Positions 1,968-27,167 of a DNA stretch of 31,372 nucleotides are shown here, piece after piece; positions within the stretch are counted from its first letter, which is position 1, and each line of letters begins with the position of its first letter. The notes below the pieces were generated by a model that saw only the letters and a program-made list of their open reading frames with translations, searched no databases and was not told the DNA's origin. Both the position numbers and the translations under genes were made by a program. Source of the DNA: a virus; IMG/VR virus record IMGVR_UViG_3300046804_003070, positions 1 through 31,372 of that record; one strand, 5' to 3'.

Positions 1968-2156
1968 TTACCACGAACCATCGTCAACGATGAATTCTAT
2001 TCTAAACATTAATACATTAATAATTAAATGATGCATCTTTGGTCCTAAATCATTAGGAGGAAGATACTTTGCCTTTAATCTCCACTCACAGGGATTAAGA
2101 ATAAACACTATTACAAGATTAGACCATCTAAGATAATTAAGTATATTTTTGATCAT
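1968..2156 (-). CDS. Small protein of unknown function
   Basis: A 62-residue frame starting at MIKNILNYLRWS (ATG 2156). An in-frame ATG 30 nt further upstream (2186) is also possible, but it would overlap the dUTPase-like gene by 50 nt instead of 20. The chosen ATG follows a GGTAAAG stretch that could act as a weak ribosome-binding site. The product has a hydrophobic N-terminal half (SNLVIVFILNP) and a basic middle, but no motif I recognise. Support is position in the operon, packing between two real genes and plausible composition only. Confidence 0.45.
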   Translation of the reverse strand: MIKNILNYLRWSNLVIVFILNPCEWRLKAKYLPPNDLGPKMHHLIINVLMFRIEFIVDDGSW

Positions 2157-2643
2157 GCGCTTTACCAATACCATAATCACCATCATACTTCTTGAGAGAT
2201 TGTGATGTAAAGAGAAGGAACTGTCCTACTCTCGTTCCCTTTTTAATCTTTGCAGGAGCAGTTACATGGAGAGCACCAGCCATAACGCCATGATAACCAG
2301 AGTCGTATAGACCACTAGTAATAAACAGCCCATTGCGATTAAGAGTTGATCTGGTGATAACCCAACCCGCTTCATCCGGCCCAACATGAATAATATTCTC
2401 CATAATAATTTCATAAGCACCAGGACTTAAATACCAATAACCCTCGGCATCTGGTGTAAGCTCCCAAGATCCTCTATGCTCTTTAACTTCTTTACCATCT
2501 ACTTCGCCAATAGTAAACGTTTTAGATACATTCATTTGAAAAATTTTATCAACACGAAGATCTACTGCATTAGGTTGAATATCAGTCAATTCAACATTAG
2601 TAAGATTAGATTGAGTATCTTGTGCTGCAATATGAATCATCAT
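2137..2643 (-). CDS. dUTPase / dCTP deaminase superfamily protein
   Basis: A 168-residue protein of the trimeric dUTPase/Dcd fold, which limits dUTP or converts dCTP for dTTP supply. Motif 1 is PNAVDLRVD (24-32), motif 2-like TRSTLNRNGL (97-106), and motif 3 GLYDSGYHG (111-119) with the aspartate D114 expected of dUTPases. The glutamate used by dCTP deaminases in the strand after motif 3 is not present (the segment reads GVMAGALHV), so a dUTPase-like role is more likely than deamination. Residues AKIKKGTRVGQFLLF match the strand pairing at the end of the fold. Start ATG 2643 overlaps the QueC stop by one base (TAATG). The gene lies within the deazaguanine cluster and probably serves nucleotide-pool quality during replication. 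Confidence 0.75.
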   Translation of the reverse strand: MMIHIAAQDTQSNLTNVELTDIQPNAVDLRVDKIFQMNVSKTFTIGEVDGKEVKEHRGSWELTPDAEGYWYLSPGAYEIIMENIIHVGPDEAGWVITRSTLNRNGLFITSGLYDSGYHGVMAGALHVTAPAKIKKGTRVGQFLLFTSQSLKKYDGDYGIGKAHDQKYT

Positions 2644-3470
2644 TAGTGGGCTCCGCTACTCTGATATTCATCAATAACTTTTTGTCCATGCTCTCTAGCT
2701 ACTTCCCAAACTACTGGTCCTGTTTCATCTGCATATGCAACTGGGTCAGGTCTTCCTAGCTTAATAAATGCTTCGATACGTTCAATAGATGATGAAGATT
2801 TATAATCTGAATACCATACGTCACCTAGCTTGATAGGCTTGTACGATGTATTAGTATTAGAATAGACTGTATCAAAATCTAAATCAAGCTCTTTACAAAG
2901 TTCAAGACCATCTTTTAGAATACCATACTTATCAGTATGAAGGTAAGGTGTAAAGTATGTTACTAGTTCTGAGTCCCAATTACCAATTCTAAATGCATGA
3001 TCATCTGCTTCACGGAACTCTGGACGACAGTCAGGATAAATTGCATGGTCACCAGAATGAATACCTAAAGCAATTGCAGTTGTTTCTTTATTCTTTGCTG
3101 CAGCTGAAAGTGCTACTGCTTGTACAAGTGAAGCAAAGATCTTATTACGATTAGGTACAACTGTTTGCTTCATTGTATCTTCTGCATAATGACCTTCCGG
3201 TACATCTGCACCACCTTCAACAAGAGTAGAATTAAGAAGAGCTGTAATACCGTCAATCTTAATAACTTGGTATTTAAACCTATGGTTTCTAGAGTGTAGA
3301 TACTTTATAAGCGATGCAGCTCTTTCTAACTCTACTCTATGCTTCTGTCCATAGTCAAATGAGACTGCAGTTACTGAACCACTAGTCTTATATGCTTCTG
3401 ATAAACAGCGGAGTAAAAGAGTAGATGAATCCATACCGCCGCTAAGTGAAACTACTAAATTCTTAAACAT
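2643..3470 (-). CDS. queC: QueC-like 7-cyano-7-deazaguanine (preQ0) synthase lacking zinc cysteines
   Basis: ATP-dependent enzyme converting 7-carboxy-7-deazaguanine to preQ0. The 275-residue protein has the PP-loop SGGMDSS (10-16), the Y40-GQKH motif, VPNRN (105-109) and the QueC signature GIHSGDHAIYPDCRPEF (136-152). The C-terminal zinc-site region, normally holding four cysteines in a SC...CGxCxxC pattern, reads YSNTNTSY ... YSDYKSSSSIER (203-231) with no cysteine. Only three cysteines (22, 148, 192) exist in the whole protein. The gene is 12 nt downstream of queF, with GGAG before the ATG. Either the zinc is structurally dispensable here or the enzyme belongs to a zinc-free variant. Identity as QueC is firm from the other motifs. 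Confidence 0.9.
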   Translation of the reverse strand: MFKNLVVSLSGGMDSSTLLLRCLSEAYKTSGSVTAVSFDYGQKHRVELERAASLIKYLHSRNHRFKYQVIKIDGITALLNSTLVEGGADVPEGHYAEDTMKQTVVPNRNKIFASLVQAVALSAAAKNKETTAIALGIHSGDHAIYPDCRPEFREADDHAFRIGNWDSELVTYFTPYLHTDKYGILKDGLELCKELDLDFDTVYSNTNTSYKPIKLGDVWYSDYKSSSSIERIEAFIKLGRPDPVAYADETGPVVWEVAREHGQKVIDEYQSSGAH

Positions 3471-3482
3471 ACAATATCTCCA

Positions 3483-4430
3483 TTATTGTCTTAGTGTTTT
3501 CATGTTAAGTTTATGTGATATAGATAGACCATTTGCATACATCATAAGTGTATCATGATCAGTTGCACGTGCAGGGTTAATATCAATACCACCACGACGT
3601 GTATACAAACAGGCTACGAAAAGTTTATCTGGACCTAAAAGGTCATACAGTCTCTTGTAAATGCATTCACAGATCTCTTCATGGAAGTGATTTTCACGGC
3701 GCATTGAGACAATATACTGTAGAAGAGATTCTGGTGTTACTGTTTTGTTACCCTTAATTGAAATATAAACATCACCCCAGTCAGGTTGATTAGTAACACG
3801 GCAGTTAGAACGAAGAACTGCTGAACGCCAATTATGTTCTGCAGTTGATACTGTATCTACTACTTCTAAAATATCTGGTGATTCATTATACTGATTAAAT
3901 ACAATAGACTCTACATTGACATGATACTCAAGAGGTATAAACTCATTATGCATATCAAAAGAGATAGGTGTAGTCATCTGCGAACCTTCATTACAGAATG
4001 AAATCTGCAATTGAGTTTTATCTTCTAGACCTAATGCTTTCGCAACGTCTTCTTGAATCCGATCTTCTGCAGTATAGATTGCACCATCGACACTATCACC
4101 AAGTCTTGCCATATTGTATGAGTTCATATAAAGTTTAAGTGACTTTGACTCTACAATATTAGGAGAATTAGATGGATAAACACAACGAATGACACCACAG
4201 ATAGGAAACCCATTTGTAGTAAGAGTGGAAAACTCATAACAATTCCATGTATCAAAGCCAGTGAAAGGCAAATTATTATCATCAATACCGTAAGCGGTAC
4301 GATTAAGATGACGAGGTACACCGACCAATAGAGAAGGATCAATGTTATCAGGAGTAACATAAGGTTTAACAACAGAACCATCTCCAGCCTTCCCTAGATG
4401 TACTGATGCAATATCTTCAATCTTTACCAT
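3483..4430 (-). CDS. queF: QueF, NADPH-dependent preQ0 reductase (bimodular type)
   Basis: Reduces the nitrile of preQ0 to the aminomethyl group of preQ1. The 315-residue length and motif layout match the two-module (E. coli-like) class. The N-terminal half has LLVGVPRHLNR, GFDTWNCYE and the QueF signature ESKSLKLY (94-101). The C-terminal half has SNCRVTNQPDWGD with the nucleophile C210 and acid D217, NHFHEE (247-252) and YTRRGGIDINP. ATG 4430 was chosen because family homology begins there and a GAGG lies about 9 nt upstream; the upstream extension of the frame does not resemble QueF. It overlaps the DUF3310-like gene by 14 nt. Its presence says the pathway runs to preQ1, not only preQ0. 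Confidence 0.96.
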   Translation of the reverse strand: MVKIEDIASVHLGKAGDGSVVKPYVTPDNIDPSLLVGVPRHLNRTAYGIDDNNLPFTGFDTWNCYEFSTLTTNGFPICGVIRCVYPSNSPNIVESKSLKLYMNSYNMARLGDSVDGAIYTAEDRIQEDVAKALGLEDKTQLQISFCNEGSQMTTPISFDMHNEFIPLEYHVNVESIVFNQYNESPDILEVVDTVSTAEHNWRSAVLRSNCRVTNQPDWGDVYISIKGNKTVTPESLLQYIVSMRRENHFHEEICECIYKRLYDLLGPDKLFVACLYTRRGGIDINPARATDHDTLMMYANGLSISHKLNMKTLRQ

Positions 4431-4659
4431 TTTTCTTTTCCTCATACGCAATTGCAAATTCAATAAACTTAGCAGCCTTTTTAAGATCTTGCAATACAGG
4501 ATCTTTATTACCTGCTCTCCAAATATACTTAAATGCTTGAAAGCGATTATAATCTGTAAATATACTATTAGTAGAAGTCTTACACAACTCCTCAATCACA
4601 TCAATACATTCATACTTACTATCACCCTTATAGTGACTAGGTCTAATAGCATCAGACAT
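4417..4659 (-). CDS. DUF3310-like protein (SaV-like)
   Basis: An 80-residue protein starting at MSDAIRPSHYKGD. It shows the family pattern HYKG...ECIDVIEEL near the N-terminus, FKYIWRAGNK in the middle and DLKKAAKFIE near the end, as in the DUF3310 proteins common in phages. The family has no established biochemical function; annotation as a nucleotide kinase in databases is not supported by a P-loop here. It overlaps the formyltransferase gene by 8 nt upstream and queF by 14 nt downstream, so it is translationally coupled inside the deazaguanine operon. A role there would be inference only. Confidence 0.8.
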   Translation of the reverse strand: MSDAIRPSHYKGDSKYECIDVIEELCKTSTNSIFTDYNRFQAFKYIWRAGNKDPVLQDLKKAAKFIEFAIAYEEKKNGKD

Positions 4660-5185
4660 CAATATGCTCCGGTAGAAATTCAATCCATGATTGTAGTGAA
4701 CAATCCTTAAGTGTATTATAAAGCTCTTCTTTAGTAATGCAAGTATTATCTCTAAGAACACTATGAACTACTTCACCTTCATCTACACCCTCGGTAACTC
4801 TATGAATAACTGAACCTATAGTATGATACTTGGCATGACCTTCCCATGTCTTCTCTTGAGGGTCTTTACCTTTAAGTTCAGGGTGTAAGTGAATAGCTGC
4901 AGGATGACCATTATAAATGTCGTGAATCTCAACTATATCTCTAGGAATGATCTTAAGGTAGCCATGTAACGTAACAAAACATCTCTGTCTTGTAAAACGT
5001 AAACCATTATGAATAGCTTCAAAGTTCATAATAGTAACCTTGTCTACAGGTATATTATGAGACCATTGATCTTCATTTTTATTGTTAGTAATAATTTCTG
5101 TAGGCCAAACATTAAAGTGATCACAGATCTTCTTAAGTTCACTTCCTGTCTGACTAAAGAGTGCTATCCAGGGTCTCAATTGCAA
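4652..5185 (-). CDS. PurN/Fmt-like formyltransferase, candidate dPreQ1 formyltransferase (DpdN)
   Basis: A 177-residue protein with the 10-formyl-tetrahydrofolate transferase fold. It has a first strand WIALFSQTGSEL, HGYLKIIP (74-81), the catalytic N92-x-H94-P motif (YNGHP), a HPELKGKDPQ loop (101-110), TIGSVIHRV (122-130) and the conserved aspartate D135 in VDEGEVV. It overlaps the end of the DpdA-type gene, which strongly suggests the substrate is preQ1 in DNA. Formylation gives the known modification 7-(formylamino)methyl-7-deazaguanine, and the enzyme predicted for that step is called DpdN. No ATG precedes the first strand: translation must start at TTG 5185 or at TTG 5179, which overlaps the DpdA stop as TTGA. 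Formylation of a nucleotide sugar is an alternative, less favoured by context. Confidence 0.82.
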   Translation of the reverse strand: MQLRPWIALFSQTGSELKKICDHFNVWPTEIITNNKNEDQWSHNIPVDKVTIMNFEAIHNGLRFTRQRCFVTLHGYLKIIPRDIVEIHDIYNGHPAAIHLHPELKGKDPQEKTWEGHAKYHTIGSVIHRVTEGVDEGEVVHSVLRDNTCITKEELYNTLKDCSLQSWIEFLPEHIDV

Positions 5186-5967
5186 AACTTTCTAAACTGT
5201 TCTACGTTACCTTTAATAAACTCAAGTTGCATATCCGTTACTTCTTCTGACATATACTCAATAAGCTTAGTTGAGATCTTCTCATCAAGACCGGTAGGAC
5301 GATATTGAACACCATTTAATCCGTGAACAATAGGATTAGAAGTATCCACAGAATCAATCCAGCTGTAATCTTTATAAGCAGTAAACTCTTGAGGAAGACC
5401 GCAACCGAGAAGGTGATGAGGCTTGTTAGTATCAATAACACCATCATCGAGTAAATCTCTCAAAAGCTTTTGACGACCAAACATCCAGGCTGCATACTTG
5501 TTAATAGGTTTAAGGTTTTCTGTTGATGCAATATAATATGAGTAATCAAAAGAGATTGCAACTTTATCTACACGAGGTGCAATGTCTTTATAGCAATCAA
5601 CTATCTCTTTATAAGTCTTCCCTTGTACCACTCCAATAGACTTGATAGAAGGATTGACTGCATACTTTGCAAGCCATTTATCCATCTTACGAAGAGTACC
5701 AAGTGTATCTTCTAGAATGTCAGGTATAATATACCAAGTAGGTTGTAACTTTTCAATCCACTTAAAGTATACATCGCCGTCAAATGACTCACCTAACTCA
5801 AAGATAGAGTTATCAAGAACTACTTCACGTCCATTAATGACTGCATCCTTGAACATACGGTAGTATACCATATTAGATTCAAAAAGATGAACCAGCGCAT
5901 AATCATAATCAGTCATGCGCTGGATAGTAGGAAAAATACTTATAGGAGCTTCATGCGCAATTTTCAT
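5176..5967 (-). CDS. dpdA: TGT-like DNA transglycosylase (phage DpdA type)
   Basis: Predicted enzyme that exchanges guanine in phage DNA for a 7-deazaguanine base. The 263-residue product has the order of motifs expected of a tRNA-guanine transglycosylase-like barrel: VVLDNSIFELG (49-59), IIPDILED (80-87) with candidate catalytic D83, GVVQG (112-116), HLLGCG (185-190) resembling the base-binding glycine motif, and WIDSVDTSNP (203-212) with candidate aspartates. It is shorter than bacterial Tgt (about 370) and lacks the usual C-terminal zinc cysteines, as in small phage DpdA proteins. The neighbours FolE, QueD, QueE, QueC and QueF supply the base. Start ATG 5967 overlaps the GIY-YIG-like gene by 17 nt. 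Subfamily assignment (DpdA2 or other) cannot be made by eye. Confidence 0.83.
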   Translation of the reverse strand: MKIAHEAPISIFPTIQRMTDYDYALVHLFESNMVYYRMFKDAVINGREVVLDNSIFELGESFDGDVYFKWIEKLQPTWYIIPDILEDTLGTLRKMDKWLAKYAVNPSIKSIGVVQGKTYKEIVDCYKDIAPRVDKVAISFDYSYYIASTENLKPINKYAAWMFGRQKLLRDLLDDGVIDTNKPHHLLGCGLPQEFTAYKDYSWIDSVDTSNPIVHGLNGVQYRPTGLDEKISTKLIEYMSEEVTDMQLEFIKGNVEQFRKFCN

Positions 5968-6325
5968 TCAATACACCTTTATTCATAATAGCAAAGATCT
6001 GTTGAATCTCATCATAGTTCCATTTGCGCATTTCTGTAATGCCAGAAATTTGATCTGGTTCATACCAATTATGAAATTTATTTTCTTTGCCTTTTATAGT
6101 ATCCATTATTAGCTTTTCTAATGATAATGCTTCTTCTTCTGTTTCACAATAAACAGAATGCATTACTTTAATGTCAGTAAAGTAGTTACTAATAGGATAA
6201 GGCTCATCAGAACCTCTATACATAAGTCTATCCATAGCATCTCTAGACTTAGTAATACCTACTTTATATACTACTTTAGGTATAGCGGTAGTACGTTTAA
6301 GTTTAGCCAAATAAACTTTATACAT
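5951..6325 (-). CDS. GIY-YIG-like (T5orf172-type) nuclease domain protein
   Basis: A 124-residue single-domain protein. The arrangement VYLAKL (4-9), then VVYKVGIT (18-25), an arginine R33 in MDRL, a glutamate-rich helix EEEALSLEKLI with E70, and NWYEP (87-90) matches the order tyrosine-YIG-Arg-Glu-Asn of the GIY-YIG fold. The short VKIGIT-like form seen in T5orf172/MUG113 domains fits best. Such domains occur in homing endonucleases and in host-directed nucleases. The gene overlaps the PD-(D/E)XK-like gene upstream (8 nt) and DpdA downstream (17 nt). It is therefore embedded in the operon and not inserted like a free-standing homing endonuclease. Function is inferred. Confidence 0.5.
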   Translation of the reverse strand: MYKVYLAKLKRTTAIPKVVYKVGITKSRDAMDRLMYRGSDEPYPISNYFTDIKVMHSVYCETEEEALSLEKLIMDTIKGKENKFHNWYEPDQISGITEMRKWNYDEIQQIFAIMNKGVLNENCA

Positions 6326-6767
6326 AATGAATCATCCAATCCATTACTAGATTAGTATTTTTAACTTTCCTTTTATCTTCACTATTAAGTGATGGTGAAT
6401 AAAGAAATTCATTATTAGCAAGATCTGCTTTTTTATAAAACTCATCATGTGGTATTTTAGACACAAACTGATTGAAACGATCTACAATCTTAAGAGTATC
6501 AAATCTATTTTCTTTACCTACAATACCTTTCATACGAATATATTCATTCGAATGTATATTTACTACTTTTACTTCTACGCGCTCTCCAGTCTTAGGATCA
6601 TAATGATCATAACCTGGATTATGAGAAGATGTCAAAATATGACCATCTTCTTTTGCACTCATATGTTCAATAATAATTGCTGCAAATGTAGCGTTAGTTT
6701 TGATTAACTCTTCTAAATTTTTACTAGCATACTTTTTAATTTGGGCATCTGTATATAAAAATGACAT
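6318..6767 (-). CDS. PD-(D/E)XK-like nuclease candidate, otherwise unknown
   Basis: A 149-residue protein. Helix-rich N-terminus with E34 (IIIEHMSAK), then GYDHYDPKTGERVEVKVV (52-69), in which D54 and E65-x-K67 are spaced like the PD-(D/E)XK catalytic core D-(9-20)-ExK on adjacent strands. A further segment FDTLKIVDRF (88-97) could be the next strand. No zinc finger or coiled coil is seen. It begins at ATG 6767, 1 nt after the preceding gene's stop, and overlaps the GIY-YIG-like gene by 8 nt. A DNA endonuclease is a reasonable guess, but motif evidence from one sequence is weak. Confidence 0.5.
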   Translation of the reverse strand: MSFLYTDAQIKKYASKNLEELIKTNATFAAIIIEHMSAKEDGHILTSSHNPGYDHYDPKTGERVEVKVVNIHSNEYIRMKGIVGKENRFDTLKIVDRFNQFVSKIPHDEFYKKADLANNEFLYSPSLNSEDKRKVKNTNLVMDWMIHYV

Positions 6768-6768
6768 G

Positions 6769-6981
6769 TTACTTAACCTTCATTCCATAGCCTGAAAAGG
6801 CAAAATTGGTTGCAAATGTATCTAAACGTTTACCAGATAGAGTCTGTATATCTCTAAGTGCCTTAACCTTAGTATCGGTTTTAGCATGAGATACTGCAAG
6901 CAATTCTTTGAAGGCTTCTCGTTTTTGTTCAGTAGTCTCTGACTTCCAAACTTTTTGTACGTATTTGTCTAGATTAATCAT
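6769..6981 (-). CDS. Small early protein of unknown function, first gene behind promoter P1
   Basis: A 70-residue protein starting MINLDKYVQKVWKSE, rich in charged helices and ending GYGMKVK. I do not recognise a domain. The upstream ATG at 6996 is part of an ATGGAG string whose GGAG would serve as ribosome-binding site for ATG 6981. The same layout occurs in the first plus-strand gene behind the sister promoter, so the downstream ATG is preferred; starting at 6996 would add MEKLP. It is the first gene behind a sigma70-type promoter whose leader is shared with the plus-strand island, which marks it as an early gene. Confidence 0.7.
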   Translation of the reverse strand: MINLDKYVQKVWKSETTEQKREAFKELLAVSHAKTDTKVKALRDIQTLSGKRLDTFATNFAFSGYGMKVK

Positions 6982-6997
6982 AGGTAATTTCTCCATT

Positions 6998-7053
6998 TTT
7001 TACCTGGTCTTCTAGCGACAATTAATCATAGTATATTTTTAATAAAAATGCAA
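6998..7053 (-). promoter_or_regulatory. Early-type sigma70 promoter P1 with shared leader
   Basis: On the minus strand TTGCAT (7048-7053) and TATGAT (7025-7030) are separated by exactly 17 nt, close to the sigma70 consensus. From 7025 down to 6998 the sequence is identical over 28 nt to 17294-17321 on the plus strand, starting TTAATTGTCGCTAGAAGACC. Transcription would start near 7018 and lead into the operon running from the 70-residue gene through the PD-(D/E)XK-like, GIY-YIG-like, DpdA, formyltransferase, QueF and QueC genes to gp45/gp44. Confidence 0.8.
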
Positions 7054-7064
7054 CTGATAAAAAA

Positions 7065-7079
7065 CTCAATGATTTCAAT
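7065..7079 (+). repeat. 15-bp upstream element, copy 4
   Basis: CTCAATGATTTCAAT preceded by an A-run, identical to the two copies at 17201-17215 and 17227-17241. It lies between the folE stop codon and the -35 box of P1, about 11 nt upstream of that -35. Its recurrence only at early-type promoters suggests a protein-binding site. Confidence 0.7.
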
Positions 7080-7843
7080 CAGTTACATGAATATCTACTG
7101 GTTTGAAGCTTGATATTACTATAGAACTCATTCTTTACTGAAGGATCAGATAAGAAATCTCCAAGTAATACTGCAGTCTGAGTCATTGAGTTTGATGCAC
7201 CAATTCCTCTGTTTTCACAGCAACCATGTTTTGCTTCGATGTAAACACCAACGTCTTTTGACTCTGTTGCTTTACTAATTGCCTTTGCAATATCACCGCA
7301 GAGTTCTTCTTGAAGAGTACCACGACGTGCACAATGCTGAGCAATACGAATATACTTACTAAGACCGATAACACGAGTATGGGGTATGACACCAATATAC
7401 GCGGTACCTGTAACTGGTTGGTGATGATGTGAACACATAGACTTAAGCTCAGCCCTAACCACAAGCATACCACCATAAGGCTCAGTACCATGCGATCCAT
7501 CATTAGGGAACGAAGTAACTTTAGGTTCATTGTGATATCTTCCTGACATGATCTCGTTAACATACATCTTAGCAAGACGTCTTGCAGTACCATGAGAGTT
7601 AGGATCATTATCTACATCGATAAGCAATGAACGAAGCACACCGTCAAACTTTTCTGCTACCTCGTCAATGAGTAGCCTACGATCATCATCATCCATAAAT
7701 TGGCTAATGTTATCGTTGGCAAAAAAGCGATGATTGGCATTTTTTAGCCTTTCTTTGATTTTTTCTGAAACTAACTTACTTTCCATATTCACACCCTGAT
7801 TATAATCTTGTTTTACTTGTTTATAGTATTCACGTAAACTCAT
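7079..7843 (-). CDS. folE: GTP cyclohydrolase I (FolE)
   Basis: Converts GTP to dihydroneopterin triphosphate, the first step towards 7-deazaguanines. The 254-residue protein carries the zinc and active-site motifs SMCSHHHQPVTG (C137, H139/H140), GLSKYIRI (160-167), RRGTLQEEL (173-181) and EAKHGCCENRGI (203-214). An N-terminal extension of about 40 residues precedes the conserved core. ATG 7843 overlaps the queD stop as ATGA. Together with QueD and QueE it forms the upper half of the pathway. It is separated from the lower half (QueC, QueF, DpdA) by promoter P1 and four genes. Some phages rely on host FolE; carrying its own suggests a high demand for the base. Confidence 0.96.
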   Translation of the reverse strand: MSLREYYKQVKQDYNQGVNMESKLVSEKIKERLKNANHRFFANDNISQFMDDDDRRLLIDEVAEKFDGVLRSLLIDVDNDPNSHGTARRLAKMYVNEIMSGRYHNEPKVTSFPNDGSHGTEPYGGMLVVRAELKSMCSHHHQPVTGTAYIGVIPHTRVIGLSKYIRIAQHCARRGTLQEELCGDIAKAISKATESKDVGVYIEAKHGCCENRGIGASNSMTQTAVLLGDFLSDPSVKNEFYSNIKLQTSRYSCN

Positions 7844-8337
7844 ACAAACAAATCCTCATTCCACTCTCTATGACCTTCACGGTAAGCCATGTTAGCCATT
7901 GTTTCACGAACTTCTACTTTAAAACACCATAGACGTTCTGCTTCACCAGGACCCCACATATCAGGAATGTATACACCGTTGACATACTTATAAAGCATAT
8001 CAGCGAGACCTTCACAGCCAAGCTTTGGTAGAATTGTTAGCTTAGCTAAACTTTTACTTTCAAGTAATTTAAATGTTTCCATCTCTGGATCATCTTGTGC
8101 AACTAACAAAGTATGATCAAATTGATCTTCTAGAATCTTTTTAAGTTCTTTAAGTCCACCATAATCAGCTACCCAGTTACGGATATCAAGCTGATCTGAT
8201 CCAAAGTAAAATTTCATAGAGAATGCATAGCCATGAATCATATTACAATGTGAGTCTGCTCTCCACTGGCGGTATGCACAAGGGAATGCATTATGATATT
8301 CTTTAGTACTTACGTATTTGTATGTTCTTGGTTCCAT
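7840..8337 (-). CDS. queD: QueD-like 6-carboxytetrahydropterin synthase (divergent, alphaproteobacterial-like form)
   Basis: Second step of the pathway. The 165-residue protein keeps the catalytic cysteine context ADSHCNMIHGYAF (C31, H35), FDHTLLV (73-79) and LGCEGLAD (106-113), which correspond to the C..HGH, DHxxL and PTxE elements of QueD. Two positions that hold zinc histidines in E. coli-type QueD are tyrosines here (Y22 in CAYRQW and Y37 in HGY). From memory of the family, the RQWRADSHC...HGYA form is typical of an alphaproteobacterial subgroup, so H30 and H35 may be among the metal ligands. Coupled by 4 nt to folE downstream. Confidence 0.87.
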   Translation of the reverse strand: MEPRTYKYVSTKEYHNAFPCAYRQWRADSHCNMIHGYAFSMKFYFGSDQLDIRNWVADYGGLKELKKILEDQFDHTLLVAQDDPEMETFKLLESKSLAKLTILPKLGCEGLADMLYKYVNGVYIPDMWGPGEAERLWCFKVEVRETMANMAYREGHREWNEDLFV

Positions 8338-8338
8338 T

Positions 8339-8554
8339 TTACTTCCTTAAATATGTTTCTATTCTTCGATCAATATACTCGTCGAGATGTTTTTTAAATT
8401 TCTCTTTCGTGGTAGGTAAGACTTTATTGCGAATATCGTCAGCTTGTCGCCATCTACCTTCTTTATTAGCATACCATTCATCATCTAGAGAATCAATAAG
8501 CGACTCTAAAGATGTAATTACATCTTCAATAATTTCACTACTTCTTCTTGGCAT
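8339..8554 (-). CDS. Small charged protein of unknown function
   Basis: A 71-residue protein starting MPRRSSEIIEDVITSLESL. ATG 8554 overlaps the queE stop by one base (TAATG), and the stop precedes the queD start by 1 nt, so it is tightly packed between two pathway genes. Predicted to be mostly helical and highly charged, with ending RRIETYLRK. No domain recognised; association with QueD/QueE is positional only. Confidence 0.7.
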   Translation of the reverse strand: MPRRSSEIIEDVITSLESLIDSLDDEWYANKEGRWRQADDIRNKVLPTTKEKFKKHLDEYIDRRIETYLRK

Positions 8555-9426
8555 TATGTACCCCAGGCATTCTTCCAGAGCTGGACTTGTAGACGGGGTG
8601 AGTATCTCCATCCATTTTTCATAGCAAGATCGGCAACCCATTTCTCGTTATTATCATAATGCATAGTAGTACCACCAGCAGGCATGAGGTAAACTGGAAT
8701 TTTATATTCTTCGATTACGTCTCTATATTCCCTAACTGCTCTTACTACATCATCATAATCATTCTGATCTGATACTACCCACTTAAAGTATCCGTTTGAG
8801 TATAGTACTTCTGAAAAGTAATCCCATACTACATGAGGTTTGATTGCATCTTCCCACTTCTCACCTGACGATGGAAGCTTAGATGAAATACTCCATGTAA
8901 CGTTAATACTATCAGGGTCACCATCTACGTTTGGTTGATCAAGATATCTTGCAAGTTCTTGTTTAAGATCTTGTGTACCGTTTGTCTCAAACGTGATGTT
9001 AGTTAAATTCATTTTACGTACTTTAATCTCTTCTAGCAAATCAACATATGATTTTTGCCAACCAAGAAGAGGTTCACCACCTGTAAGAATCAAATGCTTA
9101 TCAGTACCAAACTCTCTATTAGGTAGGAGCTCTTGCATCCTATCTACAATAGCTTCTACTGTAAGTAAAGGTGAGAGATGTTTAAAGCGAGGATCCCAAG
9201 ATGCGTATGAGTCACACCCAGTATGTACTAGAGGTAAATCTTCATAGTTTTCATACTTGTCTGGATCTACTGAAAGACGTTCTTCTGATAACTGCCCACG
9301 GGGCATACTGAAACCTGCACATTTAAAATTACAACCAAATGTACGCAGGAAAACGCTTGGAGTACCAAGGTACTGTCCTTCACCTTGAAGTGAATAGAAC
9401 AGTTCAGCGACTTTAATTTTAGACAT
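8554..9426 (-). CDS. queE: QueE-like 7-carboxy-7-deazaguanine synthase (radical SAM) with cluster-loop insertion
   Basis: Radical SAM enzyme that contracts 6-carboxytetrahydropterin to 7-carboxy-7-deazaguanine. Family hallmarks are ELFYSLQGEGQYLGTPSVFLR (8-28), the cluster-binding start GCNFKC (C32, C36), LTGGEPLLG (SAM-binding GGE) and FETNGTQ. The third cluster cysteine is not at the usual CxxxCxxC spacing; the matching CDSYASW sequence follows 34 residues later (C71), so the 4Fe-4S motif is CX3CX34C. The total length of 290 residues exceeds the usual 210-240 because of this insertion and others. ATG 9426 lies 41 nt after the preceding gene, across a hairpin. Confidence 0.93.
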   Translation of the reverse strand: MSKIKVAELFYSLQGEGQYLGTPSVFLRTFGCNFKCAGFSMPRGQLSEERLSVDPDKYENYEDLPLVHTGCDSYASWDPRFKHLSPLLTVEAIVDRMQELLPNREFGTDKHLILTGGEPLLGWQKSYVDLLEEIKVRKMNLTNITFETNGTQDLKQELARYLDQPNVDGDPDSINVTWSISSKLPSSGEKWEDAIKPHVVWDYFSEVLYSNGYFKWVVSDQNDYDDVVRAVREYRDVIEEYKIPVYLMPAGGTTMHYDNNEKWVADLAMKNGWRYSPRLQVQLWKNAWGT

Positions 9427-19755: not shown

Positions 19756-21126
19756 TTACATGATGTTTGAAATAAGAGTACGACGATAATAAACGTTTGT
19801 ATCTTCTTCAAGAGCACCTGTAGCAGAAGCTGCAGTAGCACCCTTAGCGAATGGATTTGGTACAACGCCGTAACGTGTCTTAAATCCAATCTTTGGTTGG
19901 AATGAATCTTGACCAACTGCACGAACCATTTGTAGTGGAACGTATGGGCAGTAGAAGATACCTGCGTCGAATGCATTAGCACCCTTATAACCAACTGTAG
20001 CATAGTTACCAGTTGTATAAGGATCGATATACACTCTGAAGCGTCCGTTTAGAACACCAGCGAATGTATTGCCTGTATCATCAACTTGAAGGTTATTTGA
20101 GTTGAGTGCAGGAGCATAATCGAGTACACCAGCCATCTGAAGTGCAGAAGCTACGTCTGAAGAGCAGATGATGATGTTACCCTTACCACGACGTGTGTCT
20201 TTTGCAATTTGGTTAGCTTCTCTTTCAAGGTGGAACATAAGACCCTTGAACTTTTCAACTGACCAACGGCCGTTTGAATCAGTGTCGAGGTCGAAGATAC
20301 CAGCAGTTGTTGTGCCAGTGTTTGAACCACGTACAGCTGTGATATTGATTGTACGAACGATCTCGCGGTTGATTTCAGCAAGAATTTCTGACTGAAGGAT
20401 ATTTGCGAGTTCAGTTTCAGCATCAAGACCATGAATTGCCTTAAGGTCTTGTGCGAGTTCCATTGTATATTCTGCCTTTAGAGCACGTGACTTAGCAGTA
20501 ACAGCCTGCTTGTCAATGCTGAAAGCCATTTCAGCGAATGCAACGTTTGAAGTTGATCCAAGAGCTTCAGCTTGCTGTGTATTTGCACCACCTGCGAAGT
20601 TGTAGATGTTGCTGTTAGCAAGAACTGTAGTCTGTGCTGATGTACCTGGAACTGTACCAACTGACTTATTGCCAATTGTGTTAGCTTGTGAGATACCTGG
20701 TGATGAGAACTCAGTGTTAGCTTCGTTATAGAGAGCTTCTGCAGTTGTACGTGCAGTTGAGTTAGCATAGTTTGCTCTCATTGCGAAGATAAGACCTGTT
20801 GGTCCAGTCATTGGCTGAACACCGCAGATGTCATAAGCAATGAGGTTAGGCATTGCACGACGAACGAGAGAGATAAGGATTGGGTCGTAACCAGCTACGC
20901 CAGTACCACCTGAACCTGAATAACCACCTGTACCAACTGAGTTAGTAGGTGATGTTTCAAATAGTGATTGTGGATTGAAAGCTTGCTGTTCCTTAATGGC
21001 TTTCTCTGTGTTCTCGAGGATCACAGCAGTTACATTACGGCGGTGAGCATCCTTGATTGCAGGAAGATCTGCATGTTCAAGAACTGGCTTCCACTTTGCA
21101 ACTAATTCTTCATTAAAACCGATCAT
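19756..21126 (-). CDS. 23: Major capsid protein gp23
   Basis: Forms the hexamers of the phage head. The 456-residue protein begins MIGFNEELVAKWKPVLEHAD and contains the T4-family segments LVRRAMPNLIAYDICGVQPMTGPTG, AMRANYAN, TAKSRALKAEYTMELAQDLKAIHG and CPYVPLQMVRAVGQDSF. It lacks part of the insertion domain of T4 gp23 (521), as in marine relatives. The likely gp21 cleavage point is after SLFE at residue 57, removing an N-terminal propeptide. A TATAAATA late promoter lies 29 nt upstream, a good GGAG precedes the ATG, and the terminator after the gene makes it a separable high-level transcript. Confidence 0.97.
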   Translation of the reverse strand: MIGFNEELVAKWKPVLEHADLPAIKDAHRRNVTAVILENTEKAIKEQQAFNPQSLFETSPTNSVGTGGYSGSGGTGVAGYDPILISLVRRAMPNLIAYDICGVQPMTGPTGLIFAMRANYANSTARTTAEALYNEANTEFSSPGISQANTIGNKSVGTVPGTSAQTTVLANSNIYNFAGGANTQQAEALGSTSNVAFAEMAFSIDKQAVTAKSRALKAEYTMELAQDLKAIHGLDAETELANILQSEILAEINREIVRTINITAVRGSNTGTTTAGIFDLDTDSNGRWSVEKFKGLMFHLEREANQIAKDTRRGKGNIIICSSDVASALQMAGVLDYAPALNSNNLQVDDTGNTFAGVLNGRFRVYIDPYTTGNYATVGYKGANAFDAGIFYCPYVPLQMVRAVGQDSFQPKIGFKTRYGVVPNPFAKGATAASATGALEEDTNVYYRRTLISNIM

Positions 21127-21167: not shown

Positions 21168-22217
21168 TTACTTTTTGATAGTACGTGAAAGACTTGAGAC
21201 ATACATAGCCATTTCTGGATCTAGTCTTGAAGCTGTTTCAGGCTCTTCAACACTTTCGCTAAGAAGTTGGTCAGCCTGAGCCTTTACTTCGCTCTTACCA
21301 GTGAAGTATGTCTCTTTAATAATGGAAGCCTTCTTGCGAAATTCTTCTGCATCAGAATAATCGAGAGCTTCTACTAGCTTTTCAAATTTGTCTTTCTGAG
21401 TTACAGTGAGACCTTCTGAAAGTTCTGAAGAGATCTCATTTACTTTCTTCTCATTGACAACCTTTGAAAGTTCGATATTCTTTTCTGTAGTCTCGTTTAC
21501 GAGCTGTTCAAGCTCATCAATTCTTGCGGCCATAGTTTCTACTACATCGACCTTATCTTCTGGAATGTCGATATAGTGTTCTTCAAATAGGCCTTTAAGA
21601 CCTTCAATGAAAGATTCAGCTACTTCAGTACGAACATTAGTTTCTACTGCAAGCTTGTTTTCCTGAATCCATTCTGCTACTGCATAGTTGAGATACTTGT
21701 CTACGTTCTCTTTTACTTCTTCAATAGCAGCATCAAAGCTTTCTTCAAATGATTTTGTGAGTTCTTCTTCGATCTTTACCTTTTCGAGATCTACACGAGT
21801 TGCAACAGCAGCTTCAAAGAGTGCTTCTGTTCTTACACGGAAATCTTCTGAAAGTTCTGATGAATCACCGAATAGAACCTTAAGATCTTCTTTTACTGAG
21901 TGCATTGCTTCAGCTGGTGCATTTGAAGAATTGATAGATGCTTTGTTCTTACCTGCATCACCAGATGCATTTTGTGTTGAAGCATAGTTAGCATCTACAG
22001 AAGATGTCATTTCTTCTGCGCTTCCAATTCTAGAAACGAAGTCAGAAAGCTCTTCTGGACCAAGCTTTGTAGCATATGACACTAGGTTTCTCATTAGTTC
22101 AGAACGAGAAACAGTTGGCTTTGCAGCGATTGTAGCTGCATTAGAAGTTTCTTCTTCAACAGTAGTTTCGCTGTTGTTGATTACTTCTTCTTCTTTGTTT
22201 AATTCTGTATCAGACAT
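21168..22217 (-). CDS. 22: Prohead scaffold protein gp22
   Basis: Main internal core protein of the prohead, later degraded by gp21. The 349-residue product is very acidic with long coiled coils, as in T4 gp22 (269). It has the helical segment PTVSRSELMRNLVSYATKLGPEELSDF and many V/L-x-E tripeptides suited to gp21 cutting. The N-terminal 30 residues are nearly all Glu, Asn, Thr and Ser. Order gp21-gp22-gp23 is the T4 order. It has its own late promoter at 22243-22250 and GGAG before the ATG. Confidence 0.9.
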   Translation of the reverse strand: MSDTELNKEEEVINNSETTVEEETSNAATIAAKPTVSRSELMRNLVSYATKLGPEELSDFVSRIGSAEEMTSSVDANYASTQNASGDAGKNKASINSSNAPAEAMHSVKEDLKVLFGDSSELSEDFRVRTEALFEAAVATRVDLEKVKIEEELTKSFEESFDAAIEEVKENVDKYLNYAVAEWIQENKLAVETNVRTEVAESFIEGLKGLFEEHYIDIPEDKVDVVETMAARIDELEQLVNETTEKNIELSKVVNEKKVNEISSELSEGLTVTQKDKFEKLVEALDYSDAEEFRKKASIIKETYFTGKSEVKAQADQLLSESVEEPETASRLDPEMAMYVSSLSRTIKK

Positions 22218-22254: not shown

Positions 22255-22914
22255 TTACATATTTGAAAGAAAATGTTTGAAAACTCTAATTTTAGCTTCT
22301 TCTAGCTCTTTCTTATTTACTTTAGCGGCCGCTTCTTCGATATGTTTCTTGGCTTTCTCAAGCTCTCTAGCTCTAAGAACACCATTATCCCAGACCCATT
22401 CTACGCCTTCCATAACACCATTTACAAAGGCGTCTGGGGCAGAAGGATCAGCAACAATATCAGCAGCTGTTGCTAAGAAGAAATCATTTTGAACTTCCAT
22501 AACTCCATTCTTTTCTACTAGAGATCCCATACCTCTTGATGAGACTCCTAATACAGCACCTTCTTTCATAAGGTTACTCACAATATTTCCATAAGGAGTA
22601 TCCATGATCTTGGCACGACCAACGAAGTTATCACCTTCTTGACGAAGTGATTTAATTAGATGTGAGACTCTTTCTAGATTGATAGAAGGACCTGATGGAT
22701 GGCCTAGCTCACCATAAGCTCTGTTCTTTTCAATTTGCTCGGTACGATATCTATCAACTTCTTTTGCAAGAAGATCAGTAGGATACTTACGACCGTTACG
22801 ATTCTTTAGATTGCCTTGAAGAAACACACCCTCAATGAACAGGCTTTTCTTGCCTTCAGAGCCTTCTTCTGCAATATACTTAACTTGTTCTACTACTTCT
22901 GTAATAAGTCTCAT
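22255..22914 (-). CDS. 21: Prohead maturation protease gp21
   Basis: Serine protease that cuts scaffold, core and capsid proteins after (Leu/Ile/Val)-x-Glu during head maturation. The 219-residue protein has the herpesvirus-assemblin-like core: EGVFLQGNLKNRNGRKYP at the start, AYGELGHPSG (with the catalytic histidine candidate), SHLIKSLR, and VLGVSSRGMGSL with the active-site serine candidate. Size matches T4 gp21 (212). ATG 22914 is preferred: a TTG four codons upstream is in frame but overlaps the preceding stop region. No separate promoter is seen, so it is read from the gp67-like late promoter. Confidence 0.95.
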   Translation of the reverse strand: MRLITEVVEQVKYIAEEGSEGKKSLFIEGVFLQGNLKNRNGRKYPTDLLAKEVDRYRTEQIEKNRAYGELGHPSGPSINLERVSHLIKSLRQEGDNFVGRAKIMDTPYGNIVSNLMKEGAVLGVSSRGMGSLVEKNGVMEVQNDFFLATAADIVADPSAPDAFVNGVMEGVEWVWDNGVLRARELEKAKKHIEEAAAKVNKKELEEAKIRVFKHFLSNM

Positions 22915-22915
22915 T

Positions 22916-23161
22916 TTAGTTTCCAAATGCTATAGGAGCGCCTCTCATATTGGCTCCAGTTAAAAGATCTGTTGAGCTCTTTTGTATTGCAACTGTTTCA
23001 GTGTTTGCTACTGTAACGTTAGCATACACAGTAGTATTAGCATATGCAATGTTAAGGACTGCAGAAGCTCCTGTATTAATAACTCTAACTAAAGTAGCGT
23101 TACTAACTGAGTTAGCTGTGGCTATAGAAACTTCAGCACCTAATACTTTTATAACGTTCAT
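22916..23161 (-). CDS. Small beta-rich head-block protein
   Basis: An 81-residue protein (MNVIKVLGAEVSIATANSVS...AFGN), Ala/Asn/Val/Thr-rich with alternating beta strands and no charged core. It lies between the large core protein and gp21, where cyanophages also carry a small gene. ATG 23161 overlaps the stop of the large core gene by a few bases (23161-23163). Possibly a minor capsid or decoration protein; the sequence itself shows no known domain. Confidence 0.65.
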   Translation of the reverse strand: MNVIKVLGAEVSIATANSVSNATLVRVINTGASAVLNIAYANTTVYANVTVANTETVAIQKSSTDLLTGANMRGAPIAFGN

Positions 23162-23162
23162 C

Positions 23163-25337
23163 TTACAAACCCTGTTCTTGAGCAAACTTAATTAGAAACT
23201 CAATACCTTCTCTAGTTTCTAACATTTGATCAAATTTAATCTTGTTTTCTTCTGATAAAGTATCATATAGATTATTTAGTAAAGCTTCCTCTGCTACTGA
23301 AAATTTACCAGTATGAGTCTGTTCTTCACCACCGATTGGCTTATTACCTTGTGTAGGAGGTAATGTCTCAATCTTCTCTTTATTTGCAAGTGGATCAGTC
23401 TTTAATTTGTTAAGACTATCTTGCTGCATATTCTCTTTATCTGTTTGACCTTTAGCATATTGAGTAGCTGCAGCTGCTTTTACACTAGCTGCTGTTATCT
23501 CTACTGCTTCAACTTTAATTTCTTTTCTTGGTTCTCTATTTCTTACAAGAACTGGACGACCATCAGCATTAATTCTTACTGATGATTTAATATCACCTCT
23601 GTCTGCTCTTGTAGTAGAAGGATCTACATCTTCTTTAACTGATTTTGCAAGTGATACCTTTGGACGAGGTGCATCAGTGATTGCTTTACCAGATTTTAGA
23701 GTCTCATGAAATCTATCATGTGAATGTGCTAATGAATGTTGAATTGCAAGACGGTCAGAAGACTTTGCATTTTGAAGCATTGAGAGTGCTTTATGTGCAT
23801 GTGCAGAAGTTATCTGATGTGTCTTACCATTGTTAAATGTTACTGGCTTGTTAGCAGAAATAACTTTGTGAAGTTGTGTGTGAATGTTCTTATCTGCTTC
23901 TTGACTATCATCATCACCAGCTGGTTTAGTACCATCTTTACGAGGACGACCGCGCTTGGCTTCATCAAGCTCTACTTCTTCTTTAAAGTGAGACATAGCA
24001 ACTGGAGTCTTAGTATTTGAACCGCGATGAGAAAGATGAACTGTATCACCTTCTCTATGTGCAGTTACTTTTGACTTAGTTTCATCTGTAAAAGATGTGC
24101 TTTCACCGTCTTCTAGCTTAGCAATTGCTTCTTGATGTTCTGGATGTAAAGGAAAAGAATGTGATGACCCATGGTGTACTGTAACCATCTTACCCCATGA
24201 GTGTGTAGACTTTTTTACAGTAACTGCTTCTTCCAGTTCTAGCTCTTCTTTATGAACAAATTTATACATTTTCTTTTGAGCAAGAGCAAGACCTCTTTCT
24301 CTTTTATCAATTTGTTTTTGCTTTTCTGGATCAGTTCCGTAGATACTGCTGTGTTTTGTTTTTAATTGACGTCTTTGCAACCAACTAGCATCATGATATT
24401 TTGCTATAGTATTTCTTGACAATTCGTCAATCTGCTCTACTTCTTCTTTCTTCATAGAACGAAGTTTAGCAAGATCTTCTGAGTCAATCTTTTCTTTATC
24501 ACCAGCTAGTGATGCTATCTTTTGCTGCTTTGGTGAAAGAGAAGCCTTACGAGCTTTTTCTTCTCTATCCATTTTAGCAATGTTTGACATACCAAACTTA
24601 GTAGCAGCTTTAATGTTTGACATTGTACCTAAAGCTTCATCTACTGTTTCTTCTGCTACTTTCTTAGCAGTAGCAGTTGCAATAGCCATTTTCTTAGCCA
24701 TTGGCATACCAGGATGTTCACGCTTTAGAGCCTTTGCAACTTGCTCTCTCTTTTTCATTTCTGCAGGAGTGAGAGTCTTCTCTTCTAACTCTGCTTCTTC
24801 TTTAATCTTTGCACCAACATGAGTTGATTGTGCAGCAAGTTTTTTTAGTGCTTCTCTAGAAGGACCTTTAGAAGGTAATGCTTTTTTACGAAGCATTCTG
24901 TTGTGAAGAGTGTCAATTAAATGAGATTTATTAGCTTTATCCCAATTATAGCTACCACCTTCTTCAACTGCCTGAGCTTCTTCTTTAGCAAGAACATGTT
25001 TGTCAGGATCTGAATGATGCTTCTTTAGAACACCTCTACCTACTAGAACATCTTTCTTAGTTACTTTATCTCTAGGAGGTGCAAGAGCAGCTAATGATGC
25101 TTCTTCTACAGTATCAGCTTTTAAATTCTTATCATATGCTTTTTCTGATTCATCATTTTCATATGAAGCAGTTCTTGGATCTTTTCTTTGTGGAGTACCA
25201 TTAAACACATGATCTTGATCAGTTACACCTGGTACAAGATCTTTGTGATTGATAGGATTATGCATATGCTTGAAGTTAGCTTCACCTTTTGAGAGTGGCT
25301 CTTGTACTTCGTTAATGAATTCTTTAAACGACTTCAT
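23163..25337 (-). CDS. Large prohead core/internal protein (gp68-position), polyprotein-like with AT-hook
   Basis: A 724-residue, low-complexity, Lys/Glu/Ala/His-rich protein located where T4 has the small core gene 68 (141 residues). It starts with MKSFKEFINE, a leader shared by several T4-family head-core proteins. Basic blocks are separated by acidic linkers of the form (V/L/I)-x-E followed by Ala, Gly or Leu: TVEEA (76-80), AVEEG (123-127), TVDEA (231-235), QIDEL (302-306), LELEEA (366-371), VELDEA (455-460), IKVEA (607-611) and VAEEA (681-685). These fit gp21 cleavage sites. Residues 461-468 (KRGRPRKD) form an AT-hook. The likely role is a scaffold that is processed into DNA-binding internal peptides. 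Confidence 0.75.
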   Translation of the reverse strand: MKSFKEFINEVQEPLSKGEANFKHMHNPINHKDLVPGVTDQDHVFNGTPQRKDPRTASYENDESEKAYDKNLKADTVEEASLAALAPPRDKVTKKDVLVGRGVLKKHHSDPDKHVLAKEEAQAVEEGGSYNWDKANKSHLIDTLHNRMLRKKALPSKGPSREALKKLAAQSTHVGAKIKEEAELEEKTLTPAEMKKREQVAKALKREHPGMPMAKKMAIATATAKKVAEETVDEALGTMSNIKAATKFGMSNIAKMDREEKARKASLSPKQQKIASLAGDKEKIDSEDLAKLRSMKKEEVEQIDELSRNTIAKYHDASWLQRRQLKTKHSSIYGTDPEKQKQIDKRERGLALAQKKMYKFVHKEELELEEAVTVKKSTHSWGKMVTVHHGSSHSFPLHPEHQEAIAKLEDGESTSFTDETKSKVTAHREGDTVHLSHRGSNTKTPVAMSHFKEEVELDEAKRGRPRKDGTKPAGDDDSQEADKNIHTQLHKVISANKPVTFNNGKTHQITSAHAHKALSMLQNAKSSDRLAIQHSLAHSHDRFHETLKSGKAITDAPRPKVSLAKSVKEDVDPSTTRADRGDIKSSVRINADGRPVLVRNREPRKEIKVEAVEITAASVKAAAATQYAKGQTDKENMQQDSLNKLKTDPLANKEKIETLPPTQGNKPIGGEEQTHTGKFSVAEEALLNNLYDTLSEENKIKFDQMLETREGIEFLIKFAQEQGL

Positions 25338-25557
25338 CTTGTGGTGTTCCTTCGCTCGAAACTGTTTCTTCTGGTTGAGATTCTATTTCTTCCTGTTCCA
25401 ATCCTGTAGTCGAACTAAACACACTTGAAGTAATATCAGCAGCCATCTGTGAGATTTGATCAGATACTTTAGAAGTCATAATAGTATCTAAAGCACCTTG
25501 GAGTCCCACTGGATTTTTTTCAATAGCGAAATTTACAATATCTTGAACAGTACTCAT
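25324..25557 (-). CDS. 67: Prohead core protein gp67-like
   Basis: A 77-residue protein in the T4 gene 67 position (right after the portal gene), matching T4 gp67 in length (80). The N-terminal half is a helix (MSTVQDIVNFAIEKNPVGLQG) and the C-terminal half is very acidic (GLEQEEIESQPEETVSSEG), as in gp67, whose acidic tail is processed in the head. It has its own late promoter at 25583-25590. It overlaps the large core gene by 14 nt. Assignment rests on position, size and composition. Confidence 0.7.
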   Translation of the reverse strand: MSTVQDIVNFAIEKNPVGLQGALDTIMTSKVSDQISQMAADITSSVFSSTTGLEQEEIESQPEETVSSEGTPQDEVV

Positions 25558-25592: not shown

Positions 25593-27167
25593 TTAATTCT
25601 GTGCGCCAGTACCTGGTATATTAGGGTTCTGCTGTGTAACTCCAGATGATTGCTGACGCTGATTGATAGGTTTTTGTTCAAATCCCATCTCTTCCATAGA
25701 AGGTTCTTCAGCAATTTCCTCAACCATCTGCTTGATATCTTCATCAGTCTGCATTAGAATATTCTTACGAATCCATATATCAGAGAAGTACCTACCAATA
25801 TATGGTTGAATCTGATTCAATAGATTAATTCTGTTCTGCAGTACTTCTGCTTGTTTAAATTCTTCGAAATGATTGTCGATAGTGAAATCAAAGTTAATAT
25901 CGTTAGAGATTTCATTCCAATCACTCTCAGCAATAATACCTTTAAGTACTAATTGCTTTTCTAATGCTTTTAAGAATATGTGTGAGAATCTTCTACGAAG
26001 ACGTCCAACGAACTTAGTGAACTTTACTTCATCTCTTGAAATCTCAGCTGCACGTCCTAGATTAAAACCAGCTGATCCTGGTTCAAGACGTGACATAGGA
26101 ACGTTTAATGCCTGGAATAACTTACGCTGGAAGTATTGTACATCCTGCATCTCACCTAAATTTTGACCAGCAGGTAATGTAGAGATTTCAGTACCCTTAT
26201 TACCTTCACGGCGTGGTAACCAATAATCTTCAAGCATAGTCATATATTTACGATCATCTCTTACTTCACCGGTAACAGCATCATACACAAGACGATTCTT
26301 GTGCTTGATCATCATATCTCTTAGATATTGTTCTGCTTTCGCTTTAGGAAGATTACCGACATCAATATAGAAGATGCGGCGTTCAGGAGCACGAGAAATA
26401 CGATAGATAACAGTAGCATCTTCTAGAGTTCTCAATTGGTTAAGAGGTTTGATTGCTTTTTGTAGATAAGAGTATACCATCTGGTTGTTCTTATCCATTA
26501 AACCAGATGTACAATGTAGTATTGAATCTACTGAAATTCTTAAACCACCGGTTGCAGCATTATCAACTGGAATGCCTGCATTACCACCGGCTGGTAAGAA
26601 GCTTCTATCACTATAAACATAGTACTCTCTTTTTGTTGATTGTACTACGATAGGGCCTTTTGGTTGCTTCTTTACTTCTCTAATTTTTCTGATCTTACGT
26701 GGATCAATGTAACGAAGTTCCTTAATACCATCTCTAGGATTCTTTTCATCTATAATGATATGATAGTACATACGACCATCAACATACCAACGTTTAAATA
26801 TTTCGTATGCTTCGTTTTCAAAATTTAAAAGATCTAGAATAATATTAAATTCATCTCTGATAGCATTCTTAACAGAGTCAGAATATTTTAAATTGTCTGT
26901 GTTTATTTCAACAACTTTTTCAGCATCTGTATCAATAGCTTCATTGACAATATCGTCAATAGCCATTTCTATTTCAGGTTGTTGTGATATTTCTCTGTAC
27001 TTAGCTACTAACTCTGCTTCTGTGCGAGCTGTACCATCTAAGTCTACATATGTGCCATATGCGCCACCAGCAGCGACAAGTACTGCACCATCGTCCTTTA
27101 CTTCGGGGGCAAAGGATTCGATAGGTTCTTCGTCCTTTCGCTTGATTTCAAAACCAAAAAGTTGCAT
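25593..27167 (-). CDS. 20: Portal protein gp20
   Basis: Dodecameric vertex ring for DNA entry and tail joining. The 524-residue length equals the T4 family norm (524). Diagnostic segments include IDDIVNEAIDTD, YRISRAPERRIFYIDVGNLPKAKAEQYLRD, YWLPRREGNKGTEI, LPAGQNLGEMQDV and LEPGSAGFNLGRAAEISRDE. The C-terminal 50 residues are Gln/Asn/Pro-rich and probably disordered. It starts behind a TATAAATA late promoter that lies in the loop of the hairpin ending the gp19 transcript. Order gp17-18-19-20 is conserved. Confidence 0.97.
   Translation of the reverse strand: MQLFGFEIKRKDEEPIESFAPEVKDDGAVLVAAGGAYGTYVDLDGTARTEAELVAKYREISQQPEIEMAIDDIVNEAIDTDAEKVVEINTDNLKYSDSVKNAIRDEFNIILDLLNFENEAYEIFKRWYVDGRMYYHIIIDEKNPRDGIKELRYIDPRKIRKIREVKKQPKGPIVVQSTKREYYVYSDRSFLPAGGNAGIPVDNAATGGLRISVDSILHCTSGLMDKNNQMVYSYLQKAIKPLNQLRTLEDATVIYRISRAPERRIFYIDVGNLPKAKAEQYLRDMMIKHKNRLVYDAVTGEVRDDRKYMTMLEDYWLPRREGNKGTEISTLPAGQNLGEMQDVQYFQRKLFQALNVPMSRLEPGSAGFNLGRAAEISRDEVKFTKFVGRLRRRFSHIFLKALEKQLVLKGIIAESDWNEISNDINFDFTIDNHFEEFKQAEVLQNRINLLNQIQPYIGRYFSDIWIRKNILMQTDEDIKQMVEEIAEEPSMEEMGFEQKPINQRQQSSGVTQQNPNIPGTGAQN

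Follow-up and report, generated by a model that had tools for sequence, protein, structure and literature searches.

A T4-like phage head-gene cluster encodes a predicted prohead-core polyprotein whose cassettes are exchanged at linkers resembling gp21 sites

In phage T4, the prohead protease gp21 cleaves after L/I-X-E, and capsid targeting sequences (CTSs) direct proteins to the core (PMC9026906, PMC5694885). T4 gp67 and gp68 are each cut by gp21 into several fragments (PMC9026906, PMC5694885), and the fragments of T4 core proteins mostly exit the head (PMC9026906). The internal proteins IPI–III are single proteins that lose only a propeptide; for IPIII, head incorporation required no more than the first 10 residues (PMC9026906). 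Long head-internal precursors with several x-x-E cuts, a likeness to the protein described here, are found among the inner-body and ejection proteins of phiKZ and SPN3US, but these cuts take N-terminal propeptides off one mature protein, and the part of that source drawn on here describes no shuffling of modules (PMC10052503). The nearest published idea is that of polyvalent proteins, multi-domain chains encoded among virion genes and proposed to be injected, which are enzyme-rich and for which processing by a metallopeptidase was proposed (Iyer et al., 2017; PMC5512222).

The window is a 31,372-base record of a T4-like myovirus. Its genes run, in transcription order, from terminase through gp18 sheath, gp19 tube, gp20 portal, a 77-residue gp67-like protein, a 724-residue protein and an 89-residue protein to gp21, gp22 and gp23; the T4 order is 20-67-68-21-22-23. 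The 724-residue frame, which a preliminary description had placed at positions 23163–25337, is real: it is open and uninterrupted on the minus strand (as are its parts and the flanking head genes given below), occupies the position of T4 gene 68 and, at 724 against 141 residues, is 5.1 times as long as T4 gp68, in keeping with the fivefold figure first given. Upstream lie the gp20-type portal gene (25593–27167; PF07230) and the 77-residue ORF (25324–25557), which overlaps the polyprotein start by 14 bases and is called gp67-like from its position and acidic C-terminus only; this arrangement recurs in loci L001, L004 and others. The gap before gp21 holds the 89-residue ORF (22916–23185), matching phrog_10026 and phrog_19805, both function-unknown families, and a small ORF of ~80–140 residues is present there at nearly all loci examined. 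Downstream follow the gp21-type prohead serine protease, which presumably does the cutting (22255–22926; PF03420, E = 5e-37; phrog_207), the gp22-type scaffold (21168–22217; PF25623) and the gp23-type major capsid protein (19756–21126; phrog_138), in which comparison by eye places QSLFE↓T where T4 gp23 has FLTE↓A. Elsewhere in the window, at 2137–9426, inspection by eye revealed queC-, folE-, queD- and queE-like genes (preQ0/queuosine-type synthesis) and a dCTP-deaminase-like gene, a set whose resemblances suggest DNA or tRNA modification.

As in T4, the gene lies between gp67 and gp21, the window adding a small ORF before gp21; the protein differs from gp68 in being five times longer, in its exchangeable cassettes and in being accompanied by a separate gp67-like ORF. 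Its reading as a long gp68 was not borne out: profile comparison with hhalign gave probabilities of at most 0.2% for alignments A1, A4 and A5, so orthology was rejected, and only gene position is common to the two. A basic 99-residue ORF in L127, gp68-like in look, was likewise without similarity to gp68. Where each of the T4 internal proteins loses a single propeptide, the window protein has seven predicted sites and many modules per chain; by analogy, it might function as a series of T4-type internal proteins joined in one chain. Several unrelated domains per chain, encoded among virion genes, are found in this family as in polyvalent proteins, but the window protein is encoded close to gp21 and has no recognised enzyme or effector domain in PHROG, Pfam and further domain searches. 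It gave no PHROG match, and none of the Pfam families reached its cut-off.

Motif counts were compared with shuffled sequences. The preliminary description had counted at least eight (V/L/I)-x-E sites. As a signal this count failed: there are 14 such motifs against 11.3 ± 2.9 in shuffles, and seven strict (L/I)xE motifs against 7.8, a number at chance level that therefore proves nothing, and counting was rejected as evidence. Serial sites did emerge within a longer motif, an acidic, repeated linker of the type KEE(V)Ex(L/I/V)(D/E)E↓. A regular expression for the extended linker matched 10 times against 0.08 expected, a level reached in 0 of 5000 shuffles; as it was written with the sequence already seen, the excess describes the repeat, and independent testing falls to the breakpoint analysis below. 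Training a weight matrix on 64 relatives gave K-E-E-V-E-x-(V/L/I)-(D/E)-E with A, G, K or L in the next position; having been seeded with linkers of this kind, the matrix is likewise a description of them and no test. With each place counted once, there are seven predicted sites, with P1 at residues 10, 126, 186, 234, 305, 370 and 459; six fall within the repeated linker and the seventh is the one after residue 10. Two of the inner sites, AVEE and TVDE, have V instead of L or I at P3, a point against cutting by gp21.

Residues 1–10 (25308–25337) form a putative propeptide, MKSFKEFINE↓V, which ends in an L/I-x-E site and resembles the capsid targeting sequence MKTYQEFIAE↓A with which T4 ipII and ipIII begin. 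Upstream of the N-terminal module, (I/L/V)xE↓ was found in all 37 relatives, with I or L at P3 in 33 of them, while P2 is occupied by 12 different residues. Behind the linker KEEVELDE↓, the sequence AKRGRPRKDG has an RGRP core with basic flanks, and both site and hook are kept in distant relatives, upholding the earlier identification of an AT-hook directly after a site. The predicted P1 residue is 459 and the hook, KRGRPRKDG, spans residues 461–469 (23931–23957), starting two residues past the P1 Glu, so that a cut after VELDE would, as first proposed, leave it N-terminal. The Pfam AT_hook model scored 10.3 bits on the window protein, below its cut-off of 17.4, and the call is made because the motif is conserved in relatives: across 62 proteins there are 28 RGRP motifs where 0.2 would be expected. 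Within the family, each of the 23 motifs comes immediately after (L/I/V)xE↓, with L or I at P3 in 22 and A or G as the next residue, while the five in proteins outside the polyprotein gene position are without such a site. On these grounds the window motif is a putative DNA-binding AT-hook. The predicted sites before the N-terminal module and the AT-hook, strictly conserved across the family, match the T4 gp21 L/I-x-E rule, but the raw motif count in the window protein is at chance. Starts resembling T4 targeting sequences were also seen in cyanophage ORFs near the small terminase gene: MKSYKQFMSE↓S (L022, 5384–5710), MKTFKQYITE↓A (L099, 22629–23126, minus strand) and MQTFSMFFSE↓D (L098, 302–1015), the last being S-CREM2 gp136, which has been detected in virions.

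Division at the predicted sites yields the following pieces. Piece 11–126 (24960–25307; alignments A1 and A4) consists of the conserved N-terminal module and a variable part ending in the linker EEAQAVEE↓. Next come cassette 127–186 (24780–24959; linker KEEAELEE↓; cluster C19, also in L026), cassette 187–234 (24636–24779; KTLTPAEMKKRE..., linker VAEETVDE↓; cluster C4, six copies in six contexts), for which confident helices are predicted, and cassette 235–305 (24423–24635; linker KKEEVEQIDE↓; cluster C7), with a similar stretch in L008, L009, L011 and L013. Cassette 306–370 (24228–24422; LSRNTIAKY..., linker KEELELEE↓) belongs to the commonest inner type, C2, with 24 copies in 16 proteins and 22 contexts. 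Cassette 371–459 (23961–24227; TVHHGSSHSF..., linker KEEVELDE↓; cluster C5, five copies in five contexts) is a small module of predicted beta strands. Behind the AT-hook tail lie a helical domain at residues 485–560 (23658–23885; alignment A5; pLDDT mostly >90) and, at residues 640–724 (23166–23420; A1), a conserved C-terminal module, a similar end being found in several short forms. The earlier description of the pieces as basic fits most of them, pieces 11–126 and 371–459 excepted, each of which has a net charge of −4 with its linker; across the family, interior cassette cores with the linker removed have a median net charge of +7 (87% positive) and linkers of −4. In the AlphaFold model (pTM 0.27), several regions of high confidence are separated by low-confidence stretches, and the AT-hook falls in a disordered stretch ahead of domain 485–560. 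A fold search against the PDB gave nothing significant, and one against BFVD retrieved mainly uncultured-phage relatives.

Viral contigs were scanned twice, yielding 17 and 68 loci; with dozens of contigs carrying the family, an artefact of a single assembly was rejected. At loci with ORFs listed, and as far as each contig extends, the gene is placed between gp20/gp67 and gp21, and the order 20-67-X-small ORF-21-22-23 is whole in L004 and most of those loci. Common to about 60 relatives are the N-terminal module, usually the AT-hook-led module, and the C-terminal module; the cassettes between vary in identity and order. Many relatives encode the chain as two genes side by side. Frameshifting was rejected as the origin of this division, most second ORFs having their own start shortly past the first stop; L054 is the exception, with an interruption at 3797–3806, perhaps through a frameshift or an assembly error, within a cassette that appears intact in the close relative L089. 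A survey from the gp21 side found the slot filled by anything from one ORF of 146–169 residues to more than 1400 residues in two ORFs. Short forms, the smallest of ~121 residues and without cassettes, have the N-terminal module, in most cases the C-terminal module, and no or few cassettes, and the family therefore forms a graded series from ~121 to >1000 residues. Cultured relatives examined lack a long ORF in the slot. Other features were seen in single relatives or cassettes. A LysM-like repeat (SVASGQTLSGIAKQYGKS...) soon follows EEAINE↓ in the second half of the polyprotein of L062 (5922–8246), which lies in the slot. In L007 (5453–9745), a 1431-residue cassette protein at another gene position matches the HicA toxin at 45.1 bits (cut-off 27); behind this match come a linker and, further on, a weak, sub-cut-off intein-splicing match, with a cytidylyltransferase-like gene nearby. 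The recurrent cassette GNQHKIDANKNGKIDxxDFKLLR (L003, L004, L009, L013 and others) resembles an EF-hand/dockerin calcium loop, and some BFVD relatives are named EF-hand proteins.

To ask whether linkers are points of exchange, we compared the ends of local alignments between different proteins, computed with linkers masked, with linker positions. Ends fell within 3 residues of a linker in either protein in 46% of cases (decoys, 10–17%) and in both proteins in 12.5% (decoys, 0.9–3.7%). The decoys were the same masks shifted by fixed offsets, which replaced random ones because the latter did not lie at homologous positions. When 62 proteins were divided at their sites, 307 segments in 115 clusters resulted, with relatedness among contigs uncorrected both here and in the breakpoint test. 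Cassettes are thus exchanged at linkers: the N- and C-terminal modules stay fixed, and those between them are acquired, lost and rearranged by the phages.

With the complete window protein as query, named phages gave no match, and their cassettes were recovered with relatives as queries. Sequence matches revealed that S-CREM2 gp160 and S-SZBM1_139, which were identified in CsCl-purified virions by seven unique peptides and four peptides, respectively (PMC10665884, PMC9146016), carry cassettes of the polyprotein pool. The S-CREM2 authors regarded co-purification of some virion proteins as possible (PMC10665884). These cyanophage proteins, together with those of P-TIM68 and S-RIM2, have individual cassettes in common with the window family but are encoded elsewhere, near a cytidylyltransferase or small terminase gene, and have few clear linkers.

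Position beside gp21, serial L/I-x-E-type sites and cassette exchange at those sites all favour the head-core role first suggested for this protein. We propose, with a probability of about 0.6, that it is a prohead-core polyprotein cut by gp21 at its linkers into small, mostly basic modules, some of which may be kept with the DNA. From its likeness to the T4 sequence, the ten-residue start would act as a capsid targeting sequence that brings the chain into the core before the shell closes. The neighbouring gp21 would then, as the conserved sequence around the sites suggests, cut past the linker Glu (P3 L, I or V; P1 E; P1' mostly A, G, K, L or V), removing the propeptide and freeing about seven modules, most of 48–116 residues and the last longer. 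More speculatively, several basic modules could stay on the packaged DNA and help to neutralise or organise it, chiefly the AKRGRPRKDG-led fragment, with its AT-hook as an N-terminal tail before a compact helical domain; some modules may enter the host. In a more specific form, which we hold tentatively and consider somewhat less probable than its negation, a fixed carrier (targeting, AT-hook and C-terminal modules) would receive interchangeable cassettes at gp21-cleavable linkers, a single gene thereby giving each phage its own set of DNA-binding and host-acting peptides for its head.

Because T4 core fragments mostly exit the head (PMC9026906), the main rival is a disposable filler: gp21 would chop the protein, the fragments would leave through the shell, and its role would lie in filling the core or setting head size, with cassette number tuning core volume. 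The known fate of the T4 fragments and the range of total length in the slot, from ~120 to >1400 residues, are consistent with this. Filler would, however, hardly account for conservation of the cassette sequences. Among nine related pairs, dN/dS in alignable columns was 0.09–0.16 for all but the closest, which gave 0.26 at a dS of only 0.09; these values are lowered because the columns were pre-selected for similarity. Judged from these ratios, the polyprotein is under purifying selection. The LysM-like domain of L062, the retention of the AT-hook exactly behind a site and the presence of cassette proteins in cyanophage virions also argue against filler, and we consider it unlikely.

It is less probable still that the linkers stay uncut, as repeated docking motifs for gp22 or gp23 or as plain flexible spacers, in a protein acting as a long multivalent core organiser. 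The linker is indeed longer and more conserved than gp21 requires, and AlphaFold helices continue through some linkers (e.g. 213–265 and 287–332), which argues for an uncut chain and, at those places, against free flexibility. Yet the N-terminal site shows constraint at P3, P1 and P1' and free variation at P2, as expected of gp21, and a single long organiser could hardly tolerate the division into two genes seen in many relatives. That the linkers are mainly recombination hot spots, where repeated DNA drives shuffling and protein sequence matters little, would explain why breakpoints coincide with linkers but is very improbable, as linker DNA differs synonymously within the window gene (e.g. 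GAAGAAGTAGAGCTTGATGAA versus GAAGAGCTAGAACTGGAAGAA) and still encodes almost the same peptide.

That prohead proteases process head-internal proteins is already known. In the open-access literature searched we found neither an earlier description of a phage cassette polyprotein nor any report of a phage gene whose protease sites also serve as the junctions of an exchangeable set of peptides. If the reading of the window protein as a gp21-cut core polyprotein is correct, the small peptides in a phage head could be read from one gene, and this in a group that is common in metagenomes. Various phage proteins annotated as 'hypothetical' or 'EF-hand domain-containing' would be explained as strings of cassettes, and the function of internal head peptides, a long-standing question, would become testable cassette by cassette.
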